From contig JAEEUB010000001.1 of assembly GCA_016286785.1 (NCBI GenBank), positions 1 to 64,000 of the forward strand: a stretch of DNA of 64,000 nt, read 5' to 3'. Every line of letters begins with the position of its first letter. Positions within the stretch are counted from its first letter, which is position 1. This DNA comes from Candidatus Saccharimonadota bacterium. GTDB lineage: Bacteria > Patescibacteriota > Saccharimonadia > Saccharimonadales > Saccharimonadaceae. The notes beneath the pieces were generated by a model that saw only the letters and a program-made list of their open reading frames with translations, did no database searches and had not been told where the DNA came from. Position numbers and translations under genes: made by a program. Shown here in pieces: positions 22,234-43,412 of this stretch.

Positions 22234-22322
22234 ATATCGTCCTTTTTAGCTAACTACCCGTTTTTAAACGCGTATATTATATCAAAAAACTTAAGAGTTG
22301 TCCATATGATATAATAATGGAA

Positions 22323-25456: not shown

Positions 25457-26232
25457 TGAAAAGACAAATCGGTACTCGCACAGAAATCAACGACGATTCA
25501 GATTTAGCAATTAAAGTTAAGAATCTCCATAAGAGTTTTAAACTGCCAACCGAGCAAGCTTTCGGCCTAAAACAAGCTTTCTTTAATCGCCTACGTGGCA
25601 TCAAGGGATATAAAGAACAAAAAGTTCTAAAAGGTATAGATTTCGAAGTTAAAAAAGGAGAATTCCTAGGTATCGTCGGCCGCAATGGCTCCGGTAAATC
25701 TACCCTTCTTAAAATTCTAGCCGGCATCTATTATCCAGAAAAAGGCGAAATCACAATTAATGGCACCTTAGTTCCCTTTATCGAATTAGGCGTAGGCTTT
25801 AATCCGGAGCTCACTGGTCGCGAAAACGTTTACATGAATGGTGCTCTACTTGGCTTCTCCAACGAAGAAATGGACAAAATGTATGATGATATTTGGGATT
25901 TTGCCGAACTTAAAGATTTTCAGGATCAAAAACTCAAAAACTACTCATCTGGCATGCAAGTCCGTCTTGCCTTCTCTATCGCTATTCGCGCTAAGGGCGA
26001 CATCCTTCTCTTAGACGAAGTCCTTGCCGTCGGCGATGCCGCTTTCCAGCAAAAATGTTCAGACTATTTTAATTCCTTAAAAGACAGAAATCAAACCGTT
26101 ATCCTTGTTACCCACTCAATGGAAAACGTTCGCAAATTCTGTACCCGCGCCATCCTTATCGATAACGGTCTCATAGTTAAAGAAGGTGACCCCAACAAAA
26201 TCGCCGACGCCTACACTAAATTGTGGCAATAG
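25456..26232 (+). CDS. Polysaccharide ABC transporter ATP-binding protein (TagH/Wzt-like)
   Basis: GIVGRNGSGKSTLLKILAGIYYPEKG; LTGRENVYMNG. Confidence 0.9.
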   Translation: MKRQIGTRTEINDDSDLAIKVKNLHKSFKLPTEQAFGLKQAFFNRLRGIKGYKEQKVLKGIDFEVKKGEFLGIVGRNGSGKSTLLKILAGIYYPEKGEITINGTLVPFIELGVGFNPELTGRENVYMNGALLGFSNEEMDKMYDDIWDFAELKDFQDQKLKNYSSGMQVRLAFSIAIRAKGDILLLDEVLAVGDAAFQQKCSDYFNSLKDRNQTVILVTHSMENVRKFCTRAILIDNGLIVKEGDPNKIADAYTKLWQ

Positions 26233-26240
26233 TTATAAAA

Positions 26241-27170
26241 CTATATTTTACGAAATATCTTATACAATAATCCACCAAACCTAGTGCTCATTAGATTATA
26301 GGTTTTTAATTTAGCCGTCATATATTTATTGTTCTTATAATTAGCCACATTCTGCTTAAACCAAACTAAAGTTTCTTTTTCATATTTTTCATCAATTTCT
26401 TTTTTTAGAGCATAATTCAAAAAATTGTATTTTGCCCAAAGCAGACCCACCTCCGCCGCTGCTTTCAGATCTTTATCGTTTCCCAAATATTCCACCGCCT
26501 CTTTTGCCGCTTTTTCTCTCATTAATAAACGTTCTTCAATTTTTTCGCTAGCAGTTATACTTCCCTTTCTCTCAACATATATATATAAAGATTCGTCTAT
26601 GTAGGTAACCTTTTTCGCTTTTGACATCAATTTATAAGTCGTTAAGGTATCCTCATGCTTCTTTCCTTCCGGAAAGATAATATTATTATCGGTAAACAAT
26701 TTCTTTTTATATAACTTATTCCAACTAATGATGTCGATATTTTCTTGCTTCGTTAACAAACGAATTGTGGCTTCTTTCCCACTTATTGTTTCGTTTTTCG
26801 GTTTTTCATTATTGTAACCACATATCACAATATCCGCATTACCAGCCTGCATTCCTCTGTATAAATCTAAAACAAAACCATCCTTCACATAATCATCCGA
26901 ATCAACAAACGCAATAATATCGCCCTTCGCCTTCTTTATTCCATAGTTTCTCGCACTAGATAATCCACCGTTTTTTTTATGAAAAACTCTTATTCTATCG
27001 TCTTTTTCTTTAAACTCATCGCAAATCTTCCCAGATTCATCGGTCGATCCATCATCCACTAATATTATTTCAATTTGCTTATAATTCTGTTTAATTAAAG
27101 AGTTTAAACATTTCAAAATATAATTTTCTACATTATAAACTGGTACAACGATAGATATTAAAGGCTTCAT
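26241..27170 (-). CDS. Family 2 glycosyltransferase
   Basis: ISIVVPVYNVENYILKCLNSLIKQ; VDDGSTDESG. Confidence 0.88.
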   Translation of the reverse strand: MKPLISIVVPVYNVENYILKCLNSLIKQNYKQIEIILVDDGSTDESGKICDEFKEKDDRIRVFHKKNGGLSSARNYGIKKAKGDIIAFVDSDDYVKDGFVLDLYRGMQAGNADIVICGYNNEKPKNETISGKEATIRLLTKQENIDIISWNKLYKKKLFTDNNIIFPEGKKHEDTLTTYKLMSKAKKVTYIDESLYIYVERKGSITASEKIEERLLMREKAAKEAVEYLGNDKDLKAAAEVGLLWAKYNFLNYALKKEIDEKYEKETLVWFKQNVANYKNNKYMTAKLKTYNLMSTRFGGLLYKIFRKI

Positions 27171-28171
27171 TTTTCTTCAAGGCAATTTAGGTAATTTATA
27201 GTATCATTCATCGCATCTTCAATTGTTAATTCAGCCGTCCAACCTAAATCCTTCTTCGCTTTATCAGGATTAGCATACACCTCTGCCAAATCACCAGCTC
27301 TTCGCCCTACAATCTCATATGGTAATTTTTTGCCGCTCGCCTTTTCAAAAGCCGTCACCATTTCAAGCACCGAAGTTCCCTTTCCGGTCCCTAGATTATA
27401 GATCGAAACGCCAGGCTTCATTTTGTTTACGGCCGCCACATGACCCTTAGCAAGATCCACTACGTGAATATAATCTCTCACACCAGTCCCATCGACCGTA
27501 TCGTAGTCGTCGCCAAAAATCCTTAATTTTTCAATCTCTCCAGTCGACACTTTCATGATGATTGGCATTAAGTTATTAGGGATATCGTTTGGATCTTCAC
27601 CAATCAGCCCAGACGGATGCGAACCTACCGGATTAAAGTATCTTAAAATCGTCACCTCAAATTCCGGCTCCGCCTCTGCTACATCTTTCAAGATTTCTTC
27701 AATTATATGCTTTGTTTCACCATATGGATTCGTAATCCCTACGCCAGTTTGCATATCCTCCGTAAGTTCCGCAACCCCCTGGTCGCCATACACCGTCGCC
27801 GAGGATGAAAAGATAATTTTCTTAACACCATGCTTTTTCATGCACTCTAGCAGATTAATCGTTCCACAAACATTGTTTTCATAGTACTTTAAAGGCTTTT
27901 CTACCGACTCACCCACAGCCTTTAGGCCAGCGAAGTGAATTACCAAATCATATTGACCTTCAGAAAACACATCGTCCATTCCTTCCTTATCAAGCAAATC
28001 CACTTTATAAAACTTAGGCTTCACACCAGAGATTTTTTCGATTTTATCGAGCACCGTAATTTTGCTATTAAACAAATTATCCATTATCTCCACTTCATAA
28101 CCAAGCTTGATTAGCTCGATAGCAGTATGAGATCCAATAAATCCAGTCCCTCCAGTTAGTAAAATTTTCAT
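27167..28171 (-). CDS. galE: UDP-glucose 4-epimerase
   Basis: LTGGTGFIGSHTAIELI; SSSATVYGD; NPYGETK; RYFNPVGSHPSG. Confidence 0.92.
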   Translation of the reverse strand: MKILLTGGTGFIGSHTAIELIKLGYEVEIMDNLFNSKITVLDKIEKISGVKPKFYKVDLLDKEGMDDVFSEGQYDLVIHFAGLKAVGESVEKPLKYYENNVCGTINLLECMKKHGVKKIIFSSSATVYGDQGVAELTEDMQTGVGITNPYGETKHIIEEILKDVAEAEPEFEVTILRYFNPVGSHPSGLIGEDPNDIPNNLMPIIMKVSTGEIEKLRIFGDDYDTVDGTGVRDYIHVVDLAKGHVAAVNKMKPGVSIYNLGTGKGTSVLEMVTAFEKASGKKLPYEIVGRRAGDLAEVYANPDKAKKDLGWTAELTIEDAMNDTINYLNCLEEK

Positions 28172-28201
28172 TGTTTTTCCTCCTTTTTCTTATATAAACA
28201 A

Positions 28202-29389
28202 TCAAGATAATTCACCGACTAAATCCATAGCGTTCTTTATCGCTTTGTCCATATCCCAGTATTGGTAAGCTCCAAGCCTCCCGCCCAGAATCATATTTGG
28301 ATATTTTTTATTACACAACTTAACATATTCATCGTACAGTTTTCTTGATTCTTCATTGTTCACTGGATAATATGCTTCTCCGCCCTTACTAAAATCAGTT
28401 GGATACTCTCGCGATATATAAGAAATCTTTTGTTTCACAATCTCAGGTTGATGAATCTGATAATACTTATAATCGTGCGTTCTAGTATAAGGAACATCAC
28501 TATCAGCTTCATTTATTACCGCTTCTCCAAGTCCGTTTTCCGTCTTCTCACTCTCAAATCTTAACGACCTCCACGGCAAAACACCCAATTCATAATCTAG
28601 TAATTCATCCACCTGACCACAATAAATAATCGTTATTTCGTCAGGCAAAGTTTCCTTGATATCCTTAAAATCTATGCCTAGTTTTACATCGATATTCCTA
28701 GACTCTAACATCTTTTCAACCATTCTAGTATATCCCCCTTTCGGGATTCCTTGATATTTAGCCGTCATAAAATACCTATTATTATGCGAAAATCTTACCG
28801 GTATTCTACTGAGTATTTCTGCCGACAGATTAATTGCTGAAGTATTCCACTGTTTTTCCGTATAGTTTTTCAAAAAGGCTTTATAAAGTTTTTCACCAAC
28901 TAAACTAATTCCCTTCTCCTCAAAATTTCGCGGCTCAACTATTCCATATTTTTTCTTACCATCTTCCGCTTCTTTAGTTACAAATTCTTCAGCCTCATCT
29001 GCCGTCATGTTTGTTTCGTATAATAAATTTATCGTATCAAGATTAATCGGTATAGGATAAAGTTTTCCTTTGTGTCGGGTATTTACTGTATGAACATAAT
29101 CATTAAACTCAGCAAATTGAGTAATATATTTCCAGACTTCATCTATTTCCGTATGAAAAATATGAGATCCATATTTATGCACTTCTACTCCAGTTTCTTC
29201 ATCTGTATATGAATATATATTTCCTGCTAAATGTGGACGCCGATCAATTATTAACACCTTTTTGCCAGCACTAGACAATCTTTCCGCTACCGTAGCACCA
29301 AAAATCCCTGTTCCCACTACTAAATAATCATATTTTTTAATCATTACTCTCCCTCCTCTTGCTATGTTTTGCCATTTTCCTGCAAGCAT
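28202..29389 (-). CDS. glf: UDP-galactopyranose mutase
   Basis: DYLVVGTGIFGATVAERL; HLAGNIYS; KYGSHIFHT; GRLGAYQYWDMD. Start probably internal (MIKKYDY). Confidence 0.93.
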   Translation of the reverse strand: MLAGKWQNIARGGRVMIKKYDYLVVGTGIFGATVAERLSSAGKKVLIIDRRPHLAGNIYSYTDEETGVEVHKYGSHIFHTEIDEVWKYITQFAEFNDYVHTVNTRHKGKLYPIPINLDTINLLYETNMTADEAEEFVTKEAEDGKKKYGIVEPRNFEEKGISLVGEKLYKAFLKNYTEKQWNTSAINLSAEILSRIPVRFSHNNRYFMTAKYQGIPKGGYTRMVEKMLESRNIDVKLGIDFKDIKETLPDEITIIYCGQVDELLDYELGVLPWRSLRFESEKTENGLGEAVINEADSDVPYTRTHDYKYYQIHQPEIVKQKISYISREYPTDFSKGGEAYYPVNNEESRKLYDEYVKLCNKKYPNMILGGRLGAYQYWDMDKAIKNAMDLVGELS

Positions 29390-30416
29390 TTAGCAACTTC
29401 GTCTTTACTTTATCGTTTAATTCATATAAAGATCTTATCTTTATAAACTTTTCTGGATTCACAACTGCTAAATTGTTTACAATAAATTCTGCATCTTTTT
29501 CTAATCCTTTTACATCTAAGTATCCAGCCTTCTTATATCTAGAATAATCTTCCTTAACTACGCTACTAAACTCTAAGGCCGCTTCCTTTGTTAATCTTCG
29601 CATATTCCAAATATATCCACTCATCCTCACAATCGCAAGCGTTGTTCCATATTCATCCATCAAATCTCGTTCTTTCAAATAATCTTCTACCTCATCATAT
29701 TCATCTTTCACTGCATATATTTTTCCTGCAGATTTCACGGATGAATTCGGATTATCTTGTCGATAAAACAAAAATGCTTCGTCCATAAAAAAGACTCTTT
29801 TCGCCATAGCAAATACTTTAAAATTGAACCCAGCATCCTGATACGATGCTCCAGCCGAAGGCAAAAATCTTATTTTGTTATTGTTTAAAAAAGTACGCCG
29901 ATAAATCGCACTCCAAATACTTGGCTGCTGATAAAAAATATGACGATATTCCCTAGGATTAACTATCCTCCCAATTTCGTTCTTTAAAAAAAGTTCACTT
30001 GTCCCAGTGCTACCACCTTTTTTTGTTACATATTTATGAAAATTCGCTTTAACTACATCAACGTCATTTTCTTTAGCGATTTTGTACATCTCATAAAATG
30101 CATTTTGCGCTATAAAATCATCCGATTCCACAATTCCAACATACTCGCCCGTCGCTTTATCTAGCCCCATATTCATACTTTTACCATAACCAGAATTTTC
30201 TTTATCAATTATTACTATTCGTTTGTCCTTTTTGGCAAAACTCTTAATGATTTCCAAAGAATTATCTGTTGAACCATCATTTATGCATATTATTTCAATC
30301 TCTTTCAAAGTTTGCCCAACCAAACTGCTCAAGCATTCATCTAAGTATTTTTCCACATTGTATATTGGCACCAATACCGATATTTTTGGTCTTAATGCTT
30401 TAGAATGTTTTACCAC
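29337..30416 (-). CDS. Family 2 glycosyltransferase
   Basis: ISVLVPIYNVEKYLDECLSSLVGQTLKEIEIICINDGSTDNS. Confidence 0.88.
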   Translation of the reverse strand: MVKHSKALRPKISVLVPIYNVEKYLDECLSSLVGQTLKEIEIICINDGSTDNSLEIIKSFAKKDKRIVIIDKENSGYGKSMNMGLDKATGEYVGIVESDDFIAQNAFYEMYKIAKENDVDVVKANFHKYVTKKGGSTGTSELFLKNEIGRIVNPREYRHIFYQQPSIWSAIYRRTFLNNNKIRFLPSAGASYQDAGFNFKVFAMAKRVFFMDEAFLFYRQDNPNSSVKSAGKIYAVKDEYDEVEDYLKERDLMDEYGTTLAIVRMSGYIWNMRRLTKEAALEFSSVVKEDYSRYKKAGYLDVKGLEKDAEFIVNNLAVVNPEKFIKIRSLYELNDKVKTKLLNACRKMAKHSKRRESND

Positions 30417-32280
30417 GCAATCTCCTTAGTGTTCGCCACCTTTTTGATCCATAAGGGATAACTGCAAAATAAGCTTTTACCGCTTTTTCCTTCATTTTAC
30501 CCTTAATCCCTCGCCGCATCATTTTACTATTCATCCCCTCCATCTTTAACCAAAACTTCGTAATATGCTGCAGAAGTTCTTCATAGTAAACCGTCTTCCT
30601 CGCATATTTCCAGAATTCCTGCGCGTAATCTTCAGTCGGGTCATACCATGGCTTTTTGAAGCCAGCATAGTGAATAATCATTGGATTAGTATGAGCTATC
30701 GCATATTCTTTCTGAACTTTATCCGGCGCATAACTAATAACATCCCTAACTCTACTATGATCATGGTCGACAATCATCCCCCACTTCATATCAATATATT
30801 TTACTTCACCCTCACACTCCAAATTCAATACATCCTGGTCGTTATATAGATGCGGTATTGAAGCAAGATCCAGCCACTCCGCCAAAGAATGCTTTTTGCG
30901 CATTCTATCTTCATTGAATAACAAGACGCCAGCCTGGAAATAATTATATGGATCTTTCATCTTAAAATCAGTTTTAACATATTCCATCGTTTCTCGATTG
31001 GCGTCATTTATTTGACCCAGAAAATCAGGATCACGAGTCGCCGCCAATATATAATCGCTAATATCGGTTTCATATAAGTCTGCGATGTCACCATTTATCA
31101 CTAAATCGCTGTCTAGATATAATACCTTCTCATAATCTGGCAACACCTCTTGAATCAAGAATCTGTAATATGTCTCTTCACTAATATGCGCATTTGCCTT
31201 TAGTTTGTATCCAGACAGTAAGCATGCCGCGTCGAAAAATCTAAGCGACAAATTATTGTATGATCCACACATACTTTGTAGAATCTTTTTATTATCATCA
31301 CTTACATCTGTCTGAATCAAAACTACATCATAGTTATAATTTTTATTCAAATGGTCAATTAACGACTGCAAGCAAGTCGCAAAAATCGCCATATAATTAT
31401 TACCAGCTGCAAAAACTATCGGAATCGTTTTCTTTTTGTCATCAAAAGCTGGAGCCAATACTTCTTGCGGTTCTGTTTTTTCAAAATAAACAGTCTGTAG
31501 CTCGAGTACTTTCAAATCATGATCATCTTTCTCGAGCTTCAAAAGAAAGATATTAAATAGTCTTTCCGCCAAATGACCTGGTGTCCTTAAAGCTTCAGTG
31601 TCATATCGTTCCATATTGGCGCGTTCGCAAAACTCTTTTAAAACACCAAACACAAACTCTGAGTATTTAAAGAATAATTCTTTCTTTAAAATATACATAT
31701 TGCAAAAACACATTGTGTGCCCATCTGCAAAATCATGCGCAACTTTACTATACTCTGGATATTTCTTATCAATAATATCAAGCATTAAATCAAAATCCTC
31801 AACATGAAGATGCGGCGCTGTCTTATAATGCTCTCGAACAGAATTCCATCGTCCTTCTAATCTTTGCAGATTCTTTCTTTCCGGTATCACTACGTCATAT
31901 CTCTTCACTAATGATTCAATTATCTTCTCATCGAAACCATATTTTTTTATCATGGCATCACTTGGGTAAGCTTCTATCACATTTCCAAATTCATCTTCTA
32001 TAAATCTCTTCCTATTAAAGCTAAGATACCGCCTGTAATGGAAGAAACCATAATAATCTAAATCAACATTTTTCCATGCATAATACTGCGCCGTCATTTC
32101 ACAATACATAGAATTTAACTCTGAAATATTATCTCCCGCATCATCCTGAATCATGCCTTTAATTTTCGTTTTAGCCTCTGAAGCCCCCAGTTGTATTGGG
32201 ATAAGATGTTTATTTGAAATTATCTTTGCAGGCTTGTGGCATGAAACAAAGATTTTTAGCTTAAACTCACTCTCACTCAT
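30400..32280 (-). CDS. DUF4422 domain fused to family 8 glycosyltransferase
   Basis: KIFVSCHKP ... YYGFFHYRRYLSF (DUF4422-like); IVFAAGNNYMAIFATCLQSL, VLYLDSDLVINGDI (GT8). TATAAT 7 nt before ATG 32280. Confidence 0.82.
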   Translation of the reverse strand: MSESEFKLKIFVSCHKPAKIISNKHLIPIQLGASEAKTKIKGMIQDDAGDNISELNSMYCEMTAQYYAWKNVDLDYYGFFHYRRYLSFNRKRFIEDEFGNVIEAYPSDAMIKKYGFDEKIIESLVKRYDVVIPERKNLQRLEGRWNSVREHYKTAPHLHVEDFDLMLDIIDKKYPEYSKVAHDFADGHTMCFCNMYILKKELFFKYSEFVFGVLKEFCERANMERYDTEALRTPGHLAERLFNIFLLKLEKDDHDLKVLELQTVYFEKTEPQEVLAPAFDDKKKTIPIVFAAGNNYMAIFATCLQSLIDHLNKNYNYDVVLIQTDVSDDNKKILQSMCGSYNNLSLRFFDAACLLSGYKLKANAHISEETYYRFLIQEVLPDYEKVLYLDSDLVINGDIADLYETDISDYILAATRDPDFLGQINDANRETMEYVKTDFKMKDPYNYFQAGVLLFNEDRMRKKHSLAEWLDLASIPHLYNDQDVLNLECEGEVKYIDMKWGMIVDHDHSRVRDVISYAPDKVQKEYAIAHTNPMIIHYAGFKKPWYDPTEDYAQEFWKYARKTVYYEELLQHITKFWLKMEGMNSKMMRRGIKGKMKEKAVKAYFAVIPYGSKRWRTLRRLRGKTF

Positions 32281-32412
32281 GCTTTTCATTATACCATACA
32301 CACAAATACTTTATATACCCTATTGCTGCCCTACCCTAGTCATACCGCTCATTACAACACAAATAAATTTTTGGTAAACTAATCCACTAAAGTATGGTAC
32401 AATCTAATTCAT

Positions 32413-34056
32413 ATGAAGGGAGTTATAAAAACAAAAGAACTTATTTATGCATGCCTAATATCGTGTGCTATCGGCTTTATGCTATTTATAAATGAGCCAA
32501 TAACACTATATGCAAACAATATAAACGATTTCTGGTTCGACTTCTACGTGCTTATATTTCCATCATTATTATTTTTTTCATTAACCACCATAATACTTTT
32601 CATTATATTTACTGCATTTTTCTTTCTGTCAAAAAAAACAGCTCTTAAAAAGACGTATTATTGGGCTATCATTTTTGCAATATTTTGCTTTCTATGTGCA
32701 TATATTCACAGCAATTTCCTTGCTGGATTTTTGCCACCTTTAGACGGCACTAATCCAGACTGGAGTAGTAAAACTGCAAATATAATTTCAATAGCAACCT
32801 GTGCCATAATTGCTATCGCACTAATTGTTTCAATAAAAAAAGCTGGCTATCATAAAACTATCAAATACGCGTCCACTTTAGTTGCGGCCATCGTCTTTAT
32901 TCTATTCTTATCACTGGCTTCCACCGCAATGACAACCGACGTTTTTAAGCCAAAAGAATTCATTGCTACTTCTACCACAAAAAATATTAATCTTATTTCC
33001 AATAGAAATAACTTCGTCATATTACTTCTTGACGCTGTTGATTCTGTACAATTCGATAAAGTAGTTTCAGCTAATGAATCCTACCAACAAGCATTAAAGG
33101 ATTTTTCCTATTACCCAGATACCGTATCGGCATACTCCTATACAAGAGATTCAATTCCGTTTATTTTTTCGAATACTTGGAATGAAAATCAAACATCTTT
33201 TGCCGAATACTCGACTAATGCTTATAATAATTCCGAGTTTTTCAAAAAGCTCTCAGAAAAAGGATATAACAAAAATTTTTACGAATATGAACTGACTTGG
33301 AATAATCAAAAAGCTACAGAGTTCAACAATATAGAAAGTCCGTCAAGCGGAAGTATTAAAAAGAAAGCATTACTAAAACAAGAAATTAAATATATTCTTT
33401 ATAAATCACTGCCTTTTCCACTTAAATATCTTTCCAAAATTGAAACCTTAGACTTCTCAGAAACAAAACCGATTAATGACGTTTTTCAATGGGATAACTT
33501 GATTTTTTATAATGACTACCTCAGACGACCCACAGAAAAAACCGACCAAAACTACTTCAGTTTTATACATATCGAAGGCGGCCATACGCCATTTAATGTC
33601 ACCGAGAATCTCGAACCCATCCCAGAAAATGATGGCACCTACGAACAAAAACTTGAAGCAAATATGAAAATAATCGAAAATTATCTAAACAGACTAAAAA
33701 ACAATAACGCGTATAATAATTCCACTATCATCATTATGGCCGATCACGGGTTTTGGTATGGAACAAGTAGCCGTGCCAATCCAATTCTCTACATTAAGGG
33801 AACCAATGAAAAACACAACAAAATGACAGTCTCTCAAAAACAAATATCCTTCGAAGATCTCAGCGATGCATTTATAGAGCTACTTAACAATAAAAAAAGC
33901 GATGAAATATTTGAAAACATACCAACCTCAGGTCGGATTCGACGCCACATATATAATGGATTTGGCGAAGAAGATAGATTAATCGAATATAATCAAACTG
34001 GTAACGCTTGGGAAGACAAAAAGCTACAACCAACTGGAAGGGAGTATAATCTATGA
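32413..34056 (+). CDS. Membrane-anchored sulfatase / LTA-synthase-like phosphotransferase
   Basis: N-terminal TM bundle; NFVILLLDAVDSVQFD; HIEGGHTPF; IIIMADHGFWYG. Confidence 0.75.
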   Translation: MKGVIKTKELIYACLISCAIGFMLFINEPITLYANNINDFWFDFYVLIFPSLLFFSLTTIILFIIFTAFFFLSKKTALKKTYYWAIIFAIFCFLCAYIHSNFLAGFLPPLDGTNPDWSSKTANIISIATCAIIAIALIVSIKKAGYHKTIKYASTLVAAIVFILFLSLASTAMTTDVFKPKEFIATSTTKNINLISNRNNFVILLLDAVDSVQFDKVVSANESYQQALKDFSYYPDTVSAYSYTRDSIPFIFSNTWNENQTSFAEYSTNAYNNSEFFKKLSEKGYNKNFYEYELTWNNQKATEFNNIESPSSGSIKKKALLKQEIKYILYKSLPFPLKYLSKIETLDFSETKPINDVFQWDNLIFYNDYLRRPTEKTDQNYFSFIHIEGGHTPFNVTENLEPIPENDGTYEQKLEANMKIIENYLNRLKNNNAYNNSTIIIMADHGFWYGTSSRANPILYIKGTNEKHNKMTVSQKQISFEDLSDAFIELLNNKKSDEIFENIPTSGRIRRHIYNGFGEEDRLIEYNQTGNAWEDKKLQPTGREYNL

Positions 34057-35951
34057 TTTTCGTTGATTTTCTCGGCTGGATTATGAAATTATGCTACAGT
34101 GTCGTAAGTAATTATGGCGCAGCAATTATCTTATTCACTTTAATTAGCAAAATAATCCTTCTACCAATTTCGATTTGGGTTCAAAAGAACTCTATCAAAA
34201 TGGTAAAAATGCAACCCGAAATCAATCTCCTCAAAGTAAAATATTTTGGCGACAAAGATACTATCGCAGAGGAAGAATCAAAAATATACAAAAAATATAA
34301 ATATAATCCCTTAGCCTCCCTCGTGCCGCTTATCGCGCAAATCGTTCTACTCCTGAGTATAGTAGAAATCGTTAAAAACCCTACTCTATATATTGGAGTT
34401 GAGAATCTCGACTATTATTTCCTTGGCTTTAACCTACGCTGGATTGCCTCCGAAAATGGTGGAACTGCTATCTGGATTCCTATTATTGCCGGTCTTTCTG
34501 CCCTCGCACTTTGTATTAGCCAAAATATCATGAATGTTCTTCAAGCCGAACAATCTAAATGGAATAAATACGGCATGCTTGTTTTATCGGTCGGATTGTC
34601 GGTTTATCTAGGCACATTTGTTACAGCAGGAGTAGCCCTCTATTGGACTGCCAGCAATCTCATGGCTATCTTCCAACAATGGATTCTTAACATTTTCATT
34701 AATCCTAAAAAGCATGTCGACTATAAAGCGCTAGACAAATCACGCCAGGAATTAAAAGAACTCGAAAACATCGCAAAATCCCACAAACGTACCAAGGAAC
34801 AGATAAAAAAAGAAAAAGATGATTATAAAAGATTCTTTTCTATCGCCAATAAAAAACTTGTTTTCTATTCTGAAAGTAACGGTTTTTATAAGTATTACAA
34901 AGGTATAATAGAATACATCCTCAACAATACCAATCTTACAATTCACTATATTACTAGCGATTACAACGATCAAATCTTTGAGCTCGCCAAAACCGAAAAA
35001 CACATCAAACCATATTATATCGAAGAGAAAAAACTTATTACCCTAATGATGAAAATGGATGCTGATGTTGTCGTAATGACTATGCCAGATATTAATAATT
35101 ATCACATCAAACGCAGTTATATCCGAAAAGATATCGAATATATTTATGTGCCTCACGGAATTGATAGTCTAAATCTCACCATGCGTAAAGGGTCAATGGA
35201 TAATTATGATTCCATTCTTGTAACCGGTAAACATCAACGCGAGGAATGCGAAAAGACCAATGAAGTCTACAATTTAAAAAATCGCAAAATTATAGACTGG
35301 GGTTATTCACTACTAGACGACATGATCTCAGAATATAAGAAAACCAAGAAAAAATCCAGCAAAGAGAAAACCGTCATGATTGCTCCATCGTGGCAAAAAG
35401 ATAATATTATCGACTTATGTTTGGATAAAATATTAAAATCCGTCAAAGGTAAAAAATATAAAGTCATTGTAAGACCACACCCTCAACAAGTTCGCCATAT
35501 GAAAGATCTATTTGAAAAGATGAAAGAGAAATACAATAATACTAATATCGTCATTCAGACAGATTTTTCCAATACGGATTCAGTGTTTAATGCAGACTTA
35601 TTAATTACGGATTGGTCTAGTATTGGATACGAATATGCCTTCACTACCAAAAAGCCGGTTATATCTATAGATACGCCCATGAAAGTCATGAACCCTGAAT
35701 ACGAAAAAATCAAGGTTGAACCATTCAATATCTGGGCGCGAGAACAAATCGGCGAAGTCATCAAGGTCAAGGACGCTAAGAATATTGACTCTATTATTAA
35801 AAAAATACTCAAAGATCCCACAAAATATCAGAAAAAAATATCCGCCCTTAGGAAGAATTCGGTATATAATATAGGGAATAGTGCGGAAATAGGCGCTGAA
35901 TATATTATCAAATGCGTGCAAGCTAAAGTTAAAGAAAGGAAGAAAAAATGA
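34053..35951 (+). CDS. YidC/Oxa1-like membrane domain fused to CDP-glycerol glycerophosphotransferase-like domain
   Basis: N-term NYGAAIILFTLISKIILLPISIWVQKNSIKMVKMQPEI...YKKYKYNPLASLVPLIAQIVLL (YidC signature). C-term VMIAPSWQ, VIVRPHPQQ, LLITDWSSIGYEYAFTTKKPVISID (Glyphos_transf-type). Confidence 0.82.
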   Translation: MIFVDFLGWIMKLCYSVVSNYGAAIILFTLISKIILLPISIWVQKNSIKMVKMQPEINLLKVKYFGDKDTIAEEESKIYKKYKYNPLASLVPLIAQIVLLLSIVEIVKNPTLYIGVENLDYYFLGFNLRWIASENGGTAIWIPIIAGLSALALCISQNIMNVLQAEQSKWNKYGMLVLSVGLSVYLGTFVTAGVALYWTASNLMAIFQQWILNIFINPKKHVDYKALDKSRQELKELENIAKSHKRTKEQIKKEKDDYKRFFSIANKKLVFYSESNGFYKYYKGIIEYILNNTNLTIHYITSDYNDQIFELAKTEKHIKPYYIEEKKLITLMMKMDADVVVMTMPDINNYHIKRSYIRKDIEYIYVPHGIDSLNLTMRKGSMDNYDSILVTGKHQREECEKTNEVYNLKNRKIIDWGYSLLDDMISEYKKTKKKSSKEKTVMIAPSWQKDNIIDLCLDKILKSVKGKKYKVIVRPHPQQVRHMKDLFEKMKEKYNNTNIVIQTDFSNTDSVFNADLLITDWSSIGYEYAFTTKKPVISIDTPMKVMNPEYEKIKVEPFNIWAREQIGEVIKVKDAKNIDSIIKKILKDPTKYQKKISALRKNSVYNIGNSAEIGAEYIIKCVQAKVKERKKK

Positions 35952-36154
35952 ATATAATATCAACTTTTGGCTATATCGATCCATCAGTTATGACCTATGC
36001 CATTCAAGCTGGGGCCGGCATCATTATCGCAGTTGGCGCATTCGTTGGTCTCTACTTTAGAAAGGCAAAGAAGAAAGTCAACAAAAAACTTGGCGTCGAC
36101 GAAAACAAGAAAAAGGAAGTCGAATCCGACGATATCGAAATTAAAAAAAGGTAA
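35948..36154 (+). CDS. Small single-TM protein (68 aa)
   Basis: YIDPSVMTYAIQAGAGIIIAVGAFVGLYF then Lys-rich tail; overlaps the upstream stop. Confidence 0.7.
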   Translation: MNIISTFGYIDPSVMTYAIQAGAGIIIAVGAFVGLYFRKAKKKVNKKLGVDENKKKEVESDDIEIKKR

Positions 36155-36160
36155 ATTACT

Positions 36161-37993
36161 ATGCAAGCGTTAATTCTAGCCGCCGGCATGGGCAAGCGTC
36201 TCGGCAAGTATACGTCCGACAACACAAAATGCATGTTGAAAGTAAACGGTAAAACACTAATCGAACGCGCAATTGAAGCTCTGGTGGGCGCCGGAATTAA
36301 TAAATTAATTTTAGTCCTAGGATATAAAGGTGAAAACGTCAAGCAATTCCTTTTGCATGACTGCGATAATCCAGCAGTTAAGCAAATAAAATTAGTTTTC
36401 ATCGATAACCCTATTTATGATAAAACTAACAATATTTGCTCATTATTCTTAGCAATTGATGAATTCAAAAAAGAAGACACTATCCTCCTAGAATCTGACT
36501 TAATTTACGAACCAGAGCTAATCAAAAGAATTGTCGAAGATGAAGAACCAAATCTGGTTTCTGTGGCCAAATATGAACAGTGGATGGATGGAACCGTCGT
36601 AAAGCTCAACCAAGACACCAATAGTATTGTAGAATTTATTGAGAAAAAAGATTTCAACTATCGTGATATTGAAAAATATTATAAAACCGTCAATATCTAC
36701 AAATTTAGCAAACATTTTATCAACAAGGAATTCGTTCCTTTTCTTAAAGCCTATATTGAAGCGTATGGCGAAAACGAATATTACGAATTAATCCTTAAAA
36801 TCATTGCACATCTATCCAGAAGTAGCCTAAAAGCATTGGATGTTTCCGACTTAAAATGGTATGAAATTGACGATTCTCAAGACCTAGATATTAGTACCTG
36901 TCTCTTTTCGGAAGGCGAAACCAAACTTAATAATCTTCAAAAACGTTTTGGTGGTTATTGGCGTTTCGACGAGCTACTAGACTATTGTTATTTGGTTAAC
37001 CCATATTTCCCTACCAAAGGTTTACTTAATAAAATCAATTATTTCTCCCAAACTCTCATTTCAGAGTATCCTTCTGGGCAAAAAGTGAATTGCATTTGCG
37101 CAAGCCGTCTATTTAATGACGTAGATACTAACCACCTCGTGGTTGGTAACGGCGCCGCAGAATTAATATCAACCCTCGGTAATATTCTTACTGGTAAAAT
37201 GCTCCTTTCAAAGTCCGTCTTTAATGAATATGCTCGTTGTTTTAATAAGTGTAAACTACATAAATTAAACTTAGCGAAGACTAATTATTCATATGATATT
37301 GACGCCCTAAAAGAAGCTCTTCAAAACCATGATTGTTTGTGCATTGTAAATCCAGATAATCCTACTGGAGCTTTCATAAAAGAAAAAGATATGCTTTCTC
37401 TTTTAAACCAAGCTAAACTCCAAAACAAAACCATCATTTTCGATGAATCGTTTATTGATTTTTCCGAACCCGACAAACGCTATACTTTCATTACCGACGA
37501 TATTCTCAATTCATTCCCCAACCTAATCGTTATTAAGAGTATCAGCAAATCTTACGGAGTACCAGGTATCCGTTTGGGTGTTTTAGCTTCTAGCAACGAA
37601 GCTCTCATCCAAGAAATTAAACAGAAAATACCAGTCTGGAACATCAATTCTTACGGCGAATACTTCCTACAAATCGCCAATCTATACAAAAATGATTACA
37701 TTCTATCCTGCGATAAAATCGCCGAAGAACGAAAGCGCATGATAAAAAAGCTACAAGAAGCGCTCCCTAAAAAATGTCATGTTTACTCATCAGAAGCTAA
37801 CTTCCTAATGGTAGACCTAGGCAATATCGATTCCACAAAGTTAGCCATCGAGCTGCTAAACAAGAAGATATTCATTAAAGATCTCAAAACTAAAGATGCA
37901 TTTAAAAACAAAAACTTTATTCGCCTCGCAGTCAGAACCGATAAAGAAAACGATAAACTAATTCATGATATCGTATCAACTTTAAATATATAA
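36161..37993 (+). CDS. Nucleotidyltransferase (LicC/PntC-type cytidylyltransferase-like) fused to fold-type I PLP aminotransferase
   Basis: N-term LILAAGMGKRLGKYTSDNTKCMLKVNGKTLIERAIEAL. C-term NPDNPTGAF, IFDESFIDFS, SISKSYGVPGIRLG (PLP-Lys motif). Confidence 0.82.
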   Translation: MQALILAAGMGKRLGKYTSDNTKCMLKVNGKTLIERAIEALVGAGINKLILVLGYKGENVKQFLLHDCDNPAVKQIKLVFIDNPIYDKTNNICSLFLAIDEFKKEDTILLESDLIYEPELIKRIVEDEEPNLVSVAKYEQWMDGTVVKLNQDTNSIVEFIEKKDFNYRDIEKYYKTVNIYKFSKHFINKEFVPFLKAYIEAYGENEYYELILKIIAHLSRSSLKALDVSDLKWYEIDDSQDLDISTCLFSEGETKLNNLQKRFGGYWRFDELLDYCYLVNPYFPTKGLLNKINYFSQTLISEYPSGQKVNCICASRLFNDVDTNHLVVGNGAAELISTLGNILTGKMLLSKSVFNEYARCFNKCKLHKLNLAKTNYSYDIDALKEALQNHDCLCIVNPDNPTGAFIKEKDMLSLLNQAKLQNKTIIFDESFIDFSEPDKRYTFITDDILNSFPNLIVIKSISKSYGVPGIRLGVLASSNEALIQEIKQKIPVWNINSYGEYFLQIANLYKNDYILSCDKIAEERKRMIKKLQEALPKKCHVYSSEANFLMVDLGNIDSTKLAIELLNKKIFIKDLKTKDAFKNKNFIRLAVRTDKENDKLIHDIVSTLNI

Positions 37994-38015: not shown

Positions 38016-40211
38016 TTAATCTATAATTATGTCAAGGAATGCTTGCCATGAGTGACGTTTATTCAGAAGCCTCTGTGCTGATTTTGCTAGTTTACTTAGT
38101 TTTTTAGGATTCTTCGAGATCTCATTAATACGCTCAATATATTCTTTAGGATTCTTATAATCCTCCACTAAGATCCCGGTCTTTTCGTTCTGCACAAACT
38201 CACCCACTCCCCCATCGTTACTTGCCAAAATTGGTATTCCAGCCGCTGCCGCTTCCAAAACAACATTTGGCATACCATCAGATAACGAAGTATATAATAA
38301 TAAATCATATTCAAAAATCGGAAGTGACTCAAATCCATTATATACTCCACAATATTTTAATGCCGGAATATCATCAAATATATCTTTATTGACAGTTTTA
38401 TCAATTTCACCATAGACGTCTATTGTTACCTTATTTTCGTCCAAACGCTTTCCTATTTCTGCCACCAATTCCGGCATTTTCACCGAAGTTACACGACCAG
38501 CCCAAAGAATCTTAATCTTTCCTTCTTCTACCAATTCTTCGTGCGGAGAGACAACTTCCATGTCTTTAATTGGTTGATATAGTACTTTTATCTTCTTTTC
38601 ATCAAAAGCATTTACATCTATCAAATAATCCTTCATATTCTGATTGTCAGTAAAAATATATCTAACCGCCGAATAAATATCAAATAAACGAGGATTAGCA
38701 TACGATTCTACAGCCTCAAAATTACTTCCCTCAATATATCCCCATGCAAAAATTGATACATCTAAACGATATTCCGCTTCAATCAGCTTTTTATGCTTCT
38801 TAATCCATAGATATCCAAAATCAGAATTTATTATATGTAATTTATTGCATTGCAGTTGGACTATCAGTCTTGACATTAATTCATCTCTCGCTTCATCAGA
38901 CCAAAGCTCGGCGGCCACATTTCCATAATCAATGAAATCGACACAATCCGGAAGTTTATCGGCCCAAGTGTTTTTTACTGGCAACGTAGAAATAACCGCA
39001 AAATGCCATTCGGGATGCTTTTCTTTTAGAGCTTCAATATAATTGAATAATACTTTATCCGCACCACCACGCACTACCCATGGCACAATAAAAACATAAT
39101 CCGGTTTCTTTTTAACCATTTTTGCCAATCTGCAAAAAGCTTCACCAATTAATGATTGTGCGTCTGCTTCGTATAAAGTAGCATCTATAAGCAATTGCTT
39201 ATATGGATATAATAGAGGTTCGGTATGGTTTGCAGCTACCCACTCCTTTATCACCCAGTCCGGCACTATCGTTTTAAAGCTGCCTATTTGCGAATCGTCT
39301 TTCGGCAAACGACCCATCGTCCACAACGTAAACTTTGCTACGGGCGTAATGAAAAAATTCAGATATTTATTATTTCTAATTCCCTTGTATACCCTTCTCG
39401 CCGTCCATTTCTTTTTAGCTTGATCTTCGTCTTGCTCCGCTTCTGCACGTTTTAGTCTCTCATCCATTTCCGGTGTCGGCACAGTAGCCATCTGCTTCAA
39501 ATCAAACAAATCCATGGCGGGTATCACTACCCCATCATTATTTCCAGACGATAATCTCGAGTTTTCCGAACGACGATAAAAAAGTACCGTATTACCCGCA
39601 ATTCTATGCGGGATATTCTTTTGAATAGTATCGATATTAAAAATCCAATCCTCATGACCATAACCAATACCTAACCTTCTATATGGAGTCGAAATAAAAA
39701 CACTGCGCCTCGCAAGTGAGACAGAGCACCATAAATTTCCACTAGCCAGTATAGTAGCTTCTTCTTTAGGTAATCTTGAGTTGCGTTGAATTGTTAAAAT
39801 GTTAGGCTGATCCATCCCAAATGTTAAAATTGCTTCCGGATGCACGATAATATCTTTTTTTGATTTCTTCACTAGTTTTAAAGCTTCCAAGAACCAATTT
39901 GGAGAAATCAAATCATCCCCATCCATAAACGCAATCATATCGCCCCGTGCTTTATTGGCGGCGAAGTTCCTGGAAGAACCAGTATCACCAAAACTATTCT
40001 GAAAAATCCTAATTCTTTTATCACTCTTATATCTATCCAAATAGTTAATCGTTGCATTATCCCCATTATCAACATGGATAACAATCTCATAACCATATCC
40101 AGATTTTTCTACCCTATCCAACGCTTCAAAAATACTCATCATTGTTTTGTGTAATATTAGGCCCTCAGTATGTGTAGTTATCGCAACGGTTAAATCAATC
40201 TTTTTCTTCAT
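38016..40211 (-). CDS. Bifunctional glycosyltransferase: GT2 N-terminus, GT4 C-terminus
   Basis: DLTVAITTHTEGLILHKTMMSIFEAL (GT2); KILWAGRVTSVKMPELVAEIGKRL ... SLSDGMPNVVLEAAAAGIPILASNDGGVGEFV (GT4). Confidence 0.85.
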   Translation of the reverse strand: MKKKIDLTVAITTHTEGLILHKTMMSIFEALDRVEKSGYGYEIVIHVDNGDNATINYLDRYKSDKRIRIFQNSFGDTGSSRNFAANKARGDMIAFMDGDDLISPNWFLEALKLVKKSKKDIIVHPEAILTFGMDQPNILTIQRNSRLPKEEATILASGNLWCSVSLARRSVFISTPYRRLGIGYGHEDWIFNIDTIQKNIPHRIAGNTVLFYRRSENSRLSSGNNDGVVIPAMDLFDLKQMATVPTPEMDERLKRAEAEQDEDQAKKKWTARRVYKGIRNNKYLNFFITPVAKFTLWTMGRLPKDDSQIGSFKTIVPDWVIKEWVAANHTEPLLYPYKQLLIDATLYEADAQSLIGEAFCRLAKMVKKKPDYVFIVPWVVRGGADKVLFNYIEALKEKHPEWHFAVISTLPVKNTWADKLPDCVDFIDYGNVAAELWSDEARDELMSRLIVQLQCNKLHIINSDFGYLWIKKHKKLIEAEYRLDVSIFAWGYIEGSNFEAVESYANPRLFDIYSAVRYIFTDNQNMKDYLIDVNAFDEKKIKVLYQPIKDMEVVSPHEELVEEGKIKILWAGRVTSVKMPELVAEIGKRLDENKVTIDVYGEIDKTVNKDIFDDIPALKYCGVYNGFESLPIFEYDLLLYTSLSDGMPNVVLEAAAAGIPILASNDGGVGEFVQNEKTGILVEDYKNPKEYIERINEISKNPKKLSKLAKSAQRLLNKRHSWQAFLDIIID

Positions 40212-41158
40212 TTCAGTTTCTCCATCATTCTCTTAAGTTTCCTTCTTATTTTACTTCGCCTCGTTTCACTTAAGATTGCAATCTCAGTTTTCAGCTTTTC
40301 ATTATCCGCCATTAAGTCTTCATTATACTTCGTTAATCTTTCTATTTCCTCATTCAAACTATAATATTGTTTATCTAGCCAATCCTTCCCCTCTTGTAGC
40401 TCTGCTAGTACCTCGAATAACTGCCGAATAATATCCATATGATATTCATCAAACACCCCACCATACCGTTTTATTAATTCTTCCCTAAAAATTTTATCGT
40501 CTTCTTTTTTACCAATATGCGACAATGATGTTTCAACTTGCCTATAATAGAACAAAGGTTCTTCGACTAATCCCAATTTCCAATTATTCTTCAACATAGC
40601 ATTCCATCTATTCCAATCGTATCGAGTCCTCATCGGCCAATTTAGATTTAAGCCTTCCAAAGCCTCTCGTCGCATCAAAGAAGACCCTAACATATTGCAA
40701 GATACAAGCATATATGGGAATTTCATAGTATTTTTGTCGTACTTTTTCTCGTAATAATAATCGCTTGGATTATCGCGAAACAATCGCAAATTTGTGCACA
40801 CAGCGCCATATGAAGGATGCTTATCTAAAAACTTTACTGTTTTTTCAAGAAAAGTCGGGTCCAAAACATCGTCACCACAAAAATCTATTATATACTTATT
40901 TTTCATCAGTTCATCACACTGCCTACGACGTTTCGGACTTCCAAGATTCGTTTTGTATAAACGTTTTTCTGAAATTTTGTCATATTCTATCGACTGTAAC
41001 TTTTCTCTCGTAAATCCATCATTAGAACCATCGTCAATCAATATAACTTCAAAATCTTGAAAAGTTTGTTTTCTTAATGACTCAATAGCGTCGTCAACAA
41101 ACTCTCCCTGGTTATAGGCAAGTAAAGCAACACCAACCTTTGGTTTTTTCTTCTCCAT
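40208..41158 (-). CDS. Family 2 glycosyltransferase with C-terminal coiled coil
   Basis: VGVALLAYNQGEFVDDAIESLRKQTFQDFEVILIDDGSND. TATAAT 7 nt before ATG. Confidence 0.85.
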   Translation of the reverse strand: MEKKKPKVGVALLAYNQGEFVDDAIESLRKQTFQDFEVILIDDGSNDGFTREKLQSIEYDKISEKRLYKTNLGSPKRRRQCDELMKNKYIIDFCGDDVLDPTFLEKTVKFLDKHPSYGAVCTNLRLFRDNPSDYYYEKKYDKNTMKFPYMLVSCNMLGSSLMRREALEGLNLNWPMRTRYDWNRWNAMLKNNWKLGLVEEPLFYYRQVETSLSHIGKKEDDKIFREELIKRYGGVFDEYHMDIIRQLFEVLAELQEGKDWLDKQYYSLNEEIERLTKYNEDLMADNEKLKTEIAILSETRRSKIRRKLKRMMEKLK

Positions 41159-41197: not shown

Positions 41198-41737
41198 ATG
41201 GAAAATGATATATATCAAGAAAGATATTTAAAACATCAACTAGATAAAAAAGAAGAACTCATAAAGATTATGAAGGAACGTCACTCGAATCGTCGTTTTG
41301 ATGATAAGCCAATACCACAAGAAATAATCGATGAGTTAATTTCCGTCGTAGAATTGGCCCCTTCAAGTTGTGATCGTAAAGCAATCAAAGTCGAAGTTAT
41401 AACCGATCGAGACAAAAAAGCACTTCTTGGAGGAATTCTAGTTGGTGGAGTAGGTTGGATTCATAGAGCACCAGCCATCTTGCTAATTACGGCAGATCCC
41501 AAAGCTTACAAAGCCGAAGGTGAAATAAAGTTTATGCCTTATCTAGATGGCGGAGTCGTTTCTCAGCAACTTGCACTTACTGCCACTTCACTCGGAATTC
41601 ACGGCTGTTTTGCCAATCCGAATATTAGAGATTTTAATGTAGATCATTACCACAAAATTTTTGGTCCAAATATCCTTACGATGGCATTCGCTATCGGATA
41701 TCCTATCGAAGAAGACTCATCCGATAAAGAAAAATAG
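41198..41737 (+). CDS. Nitroreductase family protein
   Basis: MKERHSNRRFDDKPIPQEIIDELISVVELAPSSCDRKAIKVEVI. TATAAT 6 nt before ATG. Confidence 0.85.
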   Translation: MENDIYQERYLKHQLDKKEELIKIMKERHSNRRFDDKPIPQEIIDELISVVELAPSSCDRKAIKVEVITDRDKKALLGGILVGGVGWIHRAPAILLITADPKAYKAEGEIKFMPYLDGGVVSQQLALTATSLGIHGCFANPNIRDFNVDHYHKIFGPNILTMAFAIGYPIEEDSSDKEK

Positions 41738-43412
41738 CAATCTGTCGTCTTGTAATTATTACACCGTCTGCAAATTCACCTTCTCTGGCGTAATACTTTG
41801 TTATTCCTTTAGTGTAAGCCCAGTTTATAGCATTCGCCATTTCAATATTGCTTGGTAAATCTTCCAAATTACTATCATAAGCCAACGGTTCATCTTCGTA
41901 TCTCCATAAGAATATCGCAACTTCTCTTCTAGTTATCTGCATATATGGTGCATATTCACCAGGCGAACTATAGTATTTTGTAGTACCGTTGTTGTAAGCC
42001 CAAATAATAGCCTTTGTTCCCAACTCATCATTAACTGATAAATCTTCAAATATTTCACTAGCATTTGAAATATCAACATCTGGTGAACCAGCAAGTCTCC
42101 ATAAGAATATCGCAACTTCTCTTCTAGTTATCTGCATATATGGTGCATATTCACCAGGCGAACTATAGTATTTTGTAATACCGTTGTTGTAAGCCCAATC
42201 AATCGCTAACCGGCCATAGTAGTCATCTGGTAAATCATTAAAAGTCTCATCAGCATCAACTGGTATATCATTTAATAAATACAATGCCAAGGCCGTCTCA
42301 CCTCTCGATAATAATCCTGGCGTTTCCTTATCGACAGTTTCTAATATATTATCAATATCATCAACCTTCTTATCGGGATATTTATTTTGAAATCTAATTA
42401 AGAATTTGTTTAATTGTGCAGTGTCAACTTTTGTATCGGGAGAAAACTCACCCCTTTTGGAATAATAATTCGTTATACCATTTTCATACATCCATCTTAT
42501 AGCTTCAGCACTAAGATTGTCTTCTGGCATATCACAAAAGATATCACAACCAGAAAGTTCATCCTCGTCGGTTATTCCACCAAACCAATCCTCAAATAGC
42601 TTATAAAAATTCAAGTTTCCATACGCATTACAACCATCACTCCATCCACTAAGTGTTGCTGCATTTGGCTGATAAGGCGTATAACGATACAATGCAGAAG
42701 TCGCCAAATTTCTAATATTCACCACCGAACCACCACAAGAAGCTGACGGATTATATTGTACATAGTTGTTTCCAAGCGGATAATTTGTCCATCCTCCATT
42801 AAGTACGGTTCTAAATAGTGCAGCTGCATTTCGAATCTGATTTTTTAATCCATAATACTCCGATGAGCATGCCGCCGTATCAGGACATCCGTAACCAGTA
42901 GCCGATCTATACTGCTGACTATGCGGGAAAGTGTCTGTTACTAAACTTTGCTCTTTTTCAAGCAGTACCAATAAAACCTGCGGATTAATTCGATAATCCT
43001 GCGCCGCTTGATAAATTATATGAGCAGCCGTCCCACCATCAAATACTTCATCTGCCATACATACGAAATGACCATCTCTTACGTGCCAAGTTCTAGGTGG
43101 AGATATCTCCGAGAAATAAGAGACCTTATCTCCAGCCGTATATCTTCCAAGACTCGTATCCCAACAAGAATTCTTAGATTCGAGAAAAGACTGAATCTGA
43201 GATTCACTCATTGAATCATAATTACTCATCTGAAAATCCGAAATAATATAACCCGGATCAAATGCAGATACATTTGCCGCACCTGCATCATTATTTAATA
43301 TTTCGTGTTTTTGCGCCAAAATAGTAAAACTAAATACAGCAACAAAAACCCCACCCACTAGATACCATATTCTTTTATCTCGTCGCTTTATTATACTATG
43401 CTTTATACTCAT
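41703..43412 (-). CDS. Secreted/surface protein with C-terminal SLH-like repeats
   Basis: N-terminal TM; repeats AINWAYxxGITKYYxxxGEYAPYMQITRREVAIFLWR; SLH-like. Confidence 0.78.
   Translation of the reverse strand: MSIKHSIIKRRDKRIWYLVGGVFVAVFSFTILAQKHEILNNDAGAANVSAFDPGYIISDFQMSNYDSMSESQIQSFLESKNSCWDTSLGRYTAGDKVSYFSEISPPRTWHVRDGHFVCMADEVFDGGTAAHIIYQAAQDYRINPQVLLVLLEKEQSLVTDTFPHSQQYRSATGYGCPDTAACSSEYYGLKNQIRNAAALFRTVLNGGWTNYPLGNNYVQYNPSASCGGSVVNIRNLATSALYRYTPYQPNAATLSGWSDGCNAYGNLNFYKLFEDWFGGITDEDELSGCDIFCDMPEDNLSAEAIRWMYENGITNYYSKRGEFSPDTKVDTAQLNKFLIRFQNKYPDKKVDDIDNILETVDKETPGLLSRGETALALYLLNDIPVDADETFNDLPDDYYGRLAIDWAYNNGITKYYSSPGEYAPYMQITRREVAIFLWRLAGSPDVDISNASEIFEDLSVNDELGTKAIIWAYNNGTTKYYSSPGEYAPYMQITRREVAIFLWRYEDEPLAYDSNLEDLPSNIEMANAINWAYTKGITKYYAREGEFADGVIITRRQIAIFLYRMSLLR
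41901..42002. repeat. Direct repeat copy 1 within the SLH region
   Basis: ~102 bp, one mismatch relative to 42096-42197 (tgtagtacc versus tgtaatacc). Confidence 0.85.
42096..42197. repeat. Direct repeat copy 2 within the SLH region
   Basis: See 41901-42002. Confidence 0.85.

Follow-up and report, generated by a model that had tools for sequence, protein, structure and literature searches.

The 64,000-nucleotide stretch analysed here (positions 1 to 64,000 of contig JAEEUB010000001.1, assembly GCA_016286785.1, Candidatus Saccharimonadota bacterium; hereafter the window) is part of a 0.77-Mb, 97% complete Saccharibacteria genome, whose closest relatives are Saccharibacteria metagenome-assembled genomes from ruminant and other gut samples. 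It carries a cassette of four genes, here named A to D (Table 1), which may decorate the cell surface with small phospho-headgroups. All four genes are encoded co-directionally on the forward strand, with 4-bp overlaps between A and B and between B and C and a 6-bp gap between C and D, leaving no space for internal promoters between the genes. The cassette interrupts a minus-strand glycosyltransferase cluster that contains galE and the gene for UDP-galactopyranose mutase and borders on a Wzm/Wzt exporter and a GtrA-GT2 fusion. This region has a low G+C content of 33-36%, compared with approximately 40% at the left end of the window. An initial annotation of this DNA had described four tightly packed genes flanked by minus-strand glycosyltransferases, and the coordinates, overlaps and gap bear this out; its term "divergent" applies in relation to the neighbouring genes but not among the four genes themselves.

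Gene A encodes a protein with five transmembrane (TM) helices by hydropathy, followed by an alkaline phosphatase (AlkP)-superfamily domain (Sulfatase family, 33.7 bits at a cut-off of 25) that is predicted to be extracytoplasmic. An alignment of 55 homologues revealed that Thr244, Asp207, Asp444, His445, His386 and His391 are invariant in all of them; Thr244 occupies the likely nucleophile position and the Asp and His residues those of the metal ligands. TM helices combined with an AlkP domain containing a Thr nucleophile and metal ligands are the hallmarks of LtaS/EptA-type proteins, and membrane AlkP-superfamily proteins of the EptA/MCR/LtaS type transfer phospho-headgroups. The headgroup transferase PptA also belongs to this superfamily (PMC10434233). 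The AlphaFold model of a C-A fusion protein (see below) matches the AlkP-superfamily folds of PbgA/YejM, LtaP, MCR-1 and sulfatases, with almost tied Z-scores for PbgA, LtaP and sulfatases; the C portion of this model is of low confidence and docking is unreadable from it. Although A resembles EptA, MCR, PptA and LtaS in its TM helices and its outside AlkP domain with a Thr nucleophile, its identity is low (approximately 10-15% in the fold matches) and it is linked to a dedicated YidC-TagF fusion. A formylglycine-dependent sulfatase activity was rejected, because Thr244 replaces the C/SxPxR nucleophile motif in 55 of 55 homologues.

This fusion, encoded by gene B, combines a YidC/Oxa1-like insertase domain (60KD_IMP, 107.9 bits; TIGR03592, 98.7 bits at a cut-off of 84.3) with a TagF/TagB-like CDP-alcohol phosphotransferase domain (Glyphos_transf, 52.7 bits at a cut-off of 22.1). 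Its AlphaFold model (predicted local distance difference test score of 89) contains a complete YidC fold that matches Bacillus halodurans YidC (3wo7, TMt 0.70), and a large number of the core residues of this half are strictly or almost strictly conserved. The C-terminal part matches the wall teichoic acid polymerase TagF (3l7l, E 1.3e-10); H368, P445-S-W-Q448, R474-P-H-P-Q478 and D520-W-S522 are invariant in all homologues, H368 and the RPHPQ motif being of catalytic type. Since the same genome encodes a separate canonical yidC, B is a paralogue that probably has a different role. A Lys residue in the groove (Lys33) was considered as a feature specific to B and dismissed, because the canonical YidC of this genome likewise has Lys there.

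No Pfam family matches the 68-residue product of gene C. It contains one TM helix, and its homologues share near-invariant ends, an N-terminal YIDPSV motif and a basic-then-acidic tail. From the signal peptide described below and the positive-inside rule, YIDPSV would be located outside and the tail inside. Of the 56 loci in which C was called, 33 encode a version with an N-terminal extension that resembles a signal peptide and places Ala directly before YIDPS. A gene for signal peptidase I (lepB, family assignment above cut-off) is found near 27 of these 33 extended versions, e.g., in L098, L119 and L139, compared with none of the 23 unextended ones (Fisher p = 2e-10), although the lineages are shared and the pairing amounts to three independent contrasts on the tree only. 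These counts offer a lead, namely that C may be cleaved by a dedicated peptidase such that YIDPS becomes its exposed N-terminus.

Gene D encodes a nucleotidyltransferase domain (NTP_transf_3, 48.8 bits) fused to a pyridoxal phosphate (PLP)-dependent domain (Aminotran_1_2, 104.1 bits). The best solved relatives of the first half are the PntC domain of 6pd1 (4.2e-13) and LicC (1jyk, 2.3e-9). Residues 4-228 of 6pd1 align with residues 2-243 of D, such that the structure of PntC fused to 2-aminoethylphosphonate (AEP) transaminase covers only the nucleotidyltransferase half of D (about residues 2-245). Residues 270-606 match the CobD/HisC class I/II enzymes and not the class-V AEP transaminase, a true example of which (PhnW) is found in the related locus L116. 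Among NCBIfam models, the PLP half scores 170.6 bits with CobD (TIGR01140) and 142.5 bits with HisC, both below the equivalog cut-offs (290.55 bits for CobD). It nonetheless has wider CobD-like features: the solved CobD 1lc5 matches D at 1.9e-26, compared with 3.7e-15 for the best clear HisC set, and nearly all D homologues share the CobD-type C-terminal xRxAxR motif and the SISKSYG motif with the PLP lysine. As this half is CobD-like, an amino-alcohol phosphate is a likelier product than a phosphonate in this genome. Phosphonate synthesis was set aside as the leading option here for this reason and because no PhnW-like class-V transaminase was found in the genome; PEP mutase was absent among the scanned neighbours, and no PEP mutase profile search of the whole window or genome was made.

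These assignments largely agree with the initial annotation, which had named a sulfatase/LTA-synthase-like protein, a YidC-glycerophosphotransferase fusion, a 68-residue single-TM protein and a PntC-like fusion. The last name applies to the nucleotidyltransferase half of D but not to its PLP half.

Related loci were collected by a GTDB scan with B, from which 80 of 221 related stretches were kept; this set is selected by B. The loci come from rumen and gut Saccharibacteria and from many Firmicutes (Lachnospiraceae, Erysipelotrichaceae, Oscillospiraceae and Bacilli). C adjoins B in 60 of the 62 loci with full context (52 by open reading frame calling and 8 by motif), and A is found within six genes of B in 45 of these 62, with up to three A homologues alongside a single B. 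Two unbiased sets were also examined, 200 genomes of one Lachnospiraceae-centred family and 199 genomes of the window's own family in the Saccharibacteria. In the former, with thresholds of E < 1e-7 for C and E < 1e-40 for B, both genes occur in the same eight genomes (8/8), with two further weak C-like matches at E > 1e-5; in the latter, they occur in the same four (4/4). With the seeds left out and shared ancestry ignored, the chance of such identical genome sets is approximately 5e-13 and 8e-7, respectively. Gene fusions join the same components: among the retrieved proteins, three of 1180-1200 residues combine A and B (L081, L107 and L115), and nine Erysipelotrichaceae-type proteins from Solobacterium/Erysipelotrichaceae loci carry C at the N-terminus of A. 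Both kinds of fusion are consistent with a topology in which the catalytic domain of A would be outside, the YidC domain would have its N-terminus out, and the TagF domain would reach the CDP donor in the cytosol. The expectation that all four genes would co-occur across genomes therefore holds for A, B and C, which do not occur independently of each other. D is not specific to B, which is absent from 19 of the 22 genomes encoding full-length D. The conserved unit is B with C and commonly A, while D is exchangeable. As separate observations, L129 encodes a 147-residue protein of tandem YTGPGGGL repeats two genes upstream of B, and three short human-faecal records labelled "Bacteriophage sp." (MT838376.1, MT836777.1 and MT836947.1) encode B at 45-55% identity; these are probably bacterial contigs mislabelled as phage.

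The exchangeable part was surveyed in a census of 79 loci. D lies beside the B-C core in 23 of them, while seven carry PEP mutase and/or phosphonopyruvate decarboxylase (Ppd), mostly together with a PhnW-type AEP transaminase and a LicC/PntC-like nucleotidyltransferase; representative PEP mutase, Ppd and PhnW proteins score above the curated equivalog cut-offs. Eight further loci encode a glycerol-3-phosphate-cytidylyltransferase-like domain fused to a Gfo/Idh dehydrogenase, accompanied by a HisC-like or class-V-like aminotransferase. In the sister Saccharibacteria loci L061-L064 and L140, this fusion is combined with a HisC-like PLP enzyme and possibly makes CDP-serinol from CDP-glycerol. A small S-adenosylmethionine-dependent methyltransferase is encoded directly 3' of C in five Firmicutes loci (L079, L092, L094, L110 and L136), where it possibly N-methylates the headgroup, and a stand-alone PLP and nucleotidyltransferase pair is present in two loci. 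Mapped on the B tree, the three main module types must have changed nine times or more, a minimum that stands when only well-supported branches are counted. In the 200 unbiased genomes, D or PEP mutase is present in seven of the eight B-positive genomes and both are present in none, against a background of 40/200 (p = 2e-4). Every module would be expected to deliver a small headgroup activated with CDP or CMP, which in at least two of the modules should end in an amine, and the swapped modules argue for CDP/CMP donors of B other than CDP-glycerol. AEP and ethanolamine phosphate are near-isosteres that differ by one oxygen. Because of this similarity, and because the CobD-cytidylyltransferase fusion replaces the AEP-cytidylyltransferase set, CDP-ethanolamine made from O-phosphoserine is the favoured product of D, followed by the aminopropanol equivalent from O-phosphothreonine.

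Taken together, we consider the cassette to be a system that decorates the surface with phospho-headgroups, in which B and C, acting with A, form the constant core at the membrane and the cytosolic headgroup module is exchangeable; the probability that we attach to this reading is roughly 55%. Family membership, conservation of active-site residues, gene linkage, fusions and the exchange of modules are observed, whereas the following substrates, acceptor, direction of flow and role of the YidC half are our inference. The CobD-like half of D would decarboxylate O-phosphoserine to phosphoethanolamine, or phosphothreonine to aminopropanol phosphate, and its LicC/PntC-like half would couple phosphoethanolamine to CMP, yielding CDP-ethanolamine. 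At the cytosolic face, the TagF-like half of B would transfer the phospho-headgroup from CDP to a membrane-embedded acceptor, either a lipid or a lipid-linked sugar, which could be held by the YidC-like half, while C would serve as a dedicated small membrane partner. The AlkP-fold domain of A would then transfer the headgroup to a surface glycan outside the cell, or trim it there. Plausibly, this glycan is a Wzm/Wzt-exported, galactofuranose-containing polysaccharide encoded around the cassette; galE and glf make a galactofuranose-containing glycan a possible acceptor. The initial proposal of a CDP-linked amino-alcohol or phosphonate fits these findings, the former being likelier here and the latter applying to the sister Firmicutes loci with AEP modules.

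A more detailed version, which we put forward tentatively, is a three-step relay. A cytosolic module would supply the CDP- or CMP-activated headgroup, the YidC-TagF protein would load it on a carrier and flip or present it via an insertase-derived groove, and one or several AlkP-fold transferases would place it on surface glycans. The YIDPS protein would be required as a subunit and, in many Firmicutes, be processed by a signal peptidase of its own. One and the same core would serve phosphoethanolamine, AEP and other headgroups, and would have passed across the phylum boundary between gut Firmicutes and the Saccharibacteria living beside them.

Several observations weigh against the decoration reading or its details. 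No recognised module is found nearby in 34 of the 79 loci. D misses the CobD equivalog cut-off, so its substrate may be phosphoserine, phosphothreonine or another compound, and no SerC that could supply phosphoserine was seen, all three class-V aminotransferases encoded in this genome being cysteine-desulfurase-like. In 17 of 62 loci no A lies near B, although one such genome (G035) has an A homologue elsewhere, and the YidC half of B could be an anchor only. The loci without A would also suit a different view, in which A hydrolytically removes headgroups or functions in lipid recycling and has only a loose connection to the pathway, while the YidC half anchors B without transport or loading. 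The AlkP superfamily indeed includes phosphodiesterases and phosphonate monoester hydrolases of the same fold. We regard this view as improbable, considering that A is fused to B in some loci and to C in others, and that a complete YidC fold with so many conserved core residues exceeds the needs of an anchor.

The product could alternatively be a backbone, if B built up a chain of amino-polyol phosphate in the way that TagF polymerises from CDP-glycerol, and A acted as an LtaS-type polymerase. Such a teichoic-acid-like polymer would be in line with PF04464 in B, the AlkP/LtaP-like folds, the Wzm/Wzt exporter next to the cassette and the glycerol-3-phosphate-cytidylyltransferase-like domain of the Saccharibacteria sister module (TIGR01518, 110 bits, below cut-off). 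However, ethanolamine phosphate and AEP lack a free hydroxyl that could be extended and would be confined to terminal or lateral positions, modules of the AEP and D types use a common core, and several A homologues per B suit several acceptors better than one polymerase and would fit A being acceptor-specific. A polymer therefore appears quite unlikely: between transfer and polymerisation at the membrane with a final step outside, both envisaged at the outset, transfer and decoration are better supported, and no sign of a headgroup polymer was found. A further alternative retains the decoration system but considers D as a transaminase or another PLP enzyme, which would produce, e.g., CDP-serinol or a CDP-amino acid such as CDP-threonine. 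Its HisC score comes near that with CobD, and dihydroxyacetone phosphate is available in any glycolytic cell, whereas SerC was not seen in this genome; there are also precedents in Cj1437, which makes serinol phosphate (PMC12409886), and in the CDP-threonine proposed for the Clostridioides difficile type A glycan (PMC10714395). This assignment nevertheless seems unlikely, because the CobD-type Arg motif of the D homologues reads IRLAVR, in contrast to LRISIG in the HisC-like PLP enzyme of the sister module, and the closest solved relatives of D are threonine-phosphate decarboxylases or similar enzymes.

The decoration system envisaged here shares parts with several known pathways. PntC makes CMP-AEP, and Treponema denticola TDE1415, in which it is fused to an AEP transaminase, resembles D in joining a LicC/PntC-like cytidylyltransferase to a PLP enzyme (PMC6697681). 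The Pnt loci likewise point to surface decoration with an aminoethyl headgroup, and the sister Firmicutes loci carry the corresponding set of PEP mutase, Ppd, AEP transaminase and nucleotidyltransferase. In contrast, the PLP half of D belongs to class I/II, no PEP mutase lies beside D, and the PntC paper names LicD-like transferases and not a YidC-TagF fusion (PMC6697681). The PF04464 fold and invariant His residues of B are shared with TagF/TagB and with CD0244 of C. difficile, a TagF-like protein proposed to move phosphothreonine from CDP-threonine to N-acetylglucosamine of the type A flagellin glycan, together with CD0242 (PMC10714395). Different from these, B has a YidC domain, and TagF 3l7l matches only its C-terminal part; the predicted donor is an amino-alcohol, and A and C are additional. 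In the Lic-1 phosphocholine pathway (LicA-LicD), a LicC-like enzyme also makes a CDP-headgroup that is moved to a surface glycan (PMC10434233), but here the transferase is TagF-like instead of LicD, the headgroup would come from a fused PLP enzyme and not from choline uptake, and the extracytoplasmic A is added. Cj1436 of Campylobacter jejuni decarboxylates serine phosphate to ethanolamine phosphate and, like the serinol-phosphate-forming Cj1437, supplies a capsule headgroup (PMC12409886); these are stand-alone genes, and their products are amidated to glucuronate instead of being activated as CDP esters. No description of the core, of a YidC-glycerophosphotransferase fusion or of CobD-type CDP-ethanolamine synthesis was found in the open-licence papers that were searched.

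On the tree, the B proteins of Saccharibacteria group in a single supported clade (15 rows) that branches within Firmicutes sequences; identity across the phyla reaches 68%, and only 4 of 199 members of the window's own family carry B. These data are most simply explained by transfer, in one direction or the other, between gut Firmicutes and Saccharibacteria. Surface zwitterions, such as phosphocholine, phosphoethanolamine and AEP, influence recognition by the immune system, the binding of phages and resistance to peptides, and the core could enable epibiotic Saccharibacteria to adapt their surface chemistry to that of their neighbours. The steps of phosphonyl tailoring after the C-P bond has formed have been called enigmatic (PMC6697681); PntC activation has since been identified but the transferase has not, and in gut Firmicutes the YidC-TagF fusion, together with C, is a specific candidate for this enzyme. 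If true, the YidC fold would have a new use beyond the insertion of proteins.

Table 1. Cassette genes with their domains, and other features of the window.
Feature	Position	Strand	Assignment
Gene A	32413-34056	+	Candidate phospho-headgroup transferase, membrane-anchored alkaline-phosphatase superfamily; PF00884
Gene B	34053-35951	+	YidC-TagF-like fusion; PF02096 + PF04464
Gene B, N-terminal part (residues 1-215)	34053-34697	+	YidC/Oxa1-like insertase domain
Gene B, C-terminal part (residues 257-632)	34821-35951	+	TagF/TagB-like CDP-alcohol phosphotransferase domain
Gene C	35948-36154	+	68-residue single-TM protein, YIDPSV...TM...RKAKKK...VDENKKKEVESDDI
Gene D	36161-37993	+	NTP_transf_3 + Aminotran_1_2
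Gene D, N-terminal part	36161-36895	+	LicC/PntC-like cytidylyltransferase
Gene D, C-terminal part	36896-37993	+	CobD-like PLP enzyme, candidate O-phospho-L-serine (or -threonine) decarboxylase
uvrA	19354-22233	-	Two open reading frames
GtrA-like membrane domain fused to GT2 glycosyltransferase	22317-23792	+	
Wzm/Wzt-type polysaccharide ABC exporter	24644-26232	+	PF01061; top-scoring NCBIfam models: teichoic-acid and galactan export subunits, below equivalog cut-offs
galE and UDP-galactopyranose mutase (glf)	27167-29389	-	TIGR01179 (410 bits) and TIGR00031 (341.7 bits), both above cut-off
DUF4422 and GT8 glycosyltransferase adjoining the cassette	30400-32301	-	PF14393, PF01501
Two glycosyltransferases (GT2+GT4; GT2) downstream of the cassette	38016-41158	-	PF00534/PF00535
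SLH-like repeat protein	41703-43412		
CotH kinase-like protein	44020-45345	-	PF08757
Canonical yidC	48155-49255	-	

Among the surrounding genes (Table 1), the GtrA-GT2 fusion is a possible flippase/transferase for lipid-linked sugars. A role of the cassette in anti-phage defence was dismissed, as PADLOC gave no match. A scan for promoters and terminators revealed no clear excess over shuffled sequence, and the RNA elements of the window are two tRNAs only. A CotH kinase-like protein is encoded near an SLH-like repeat protein. An in-frame TAG at approximately 20665-20667 divides uvrA into two open reading frames, whereas relatives (L062) have Ser at this site (QIGSGLQG); a mutation, an assembly error or readthrough are candidate explanations.

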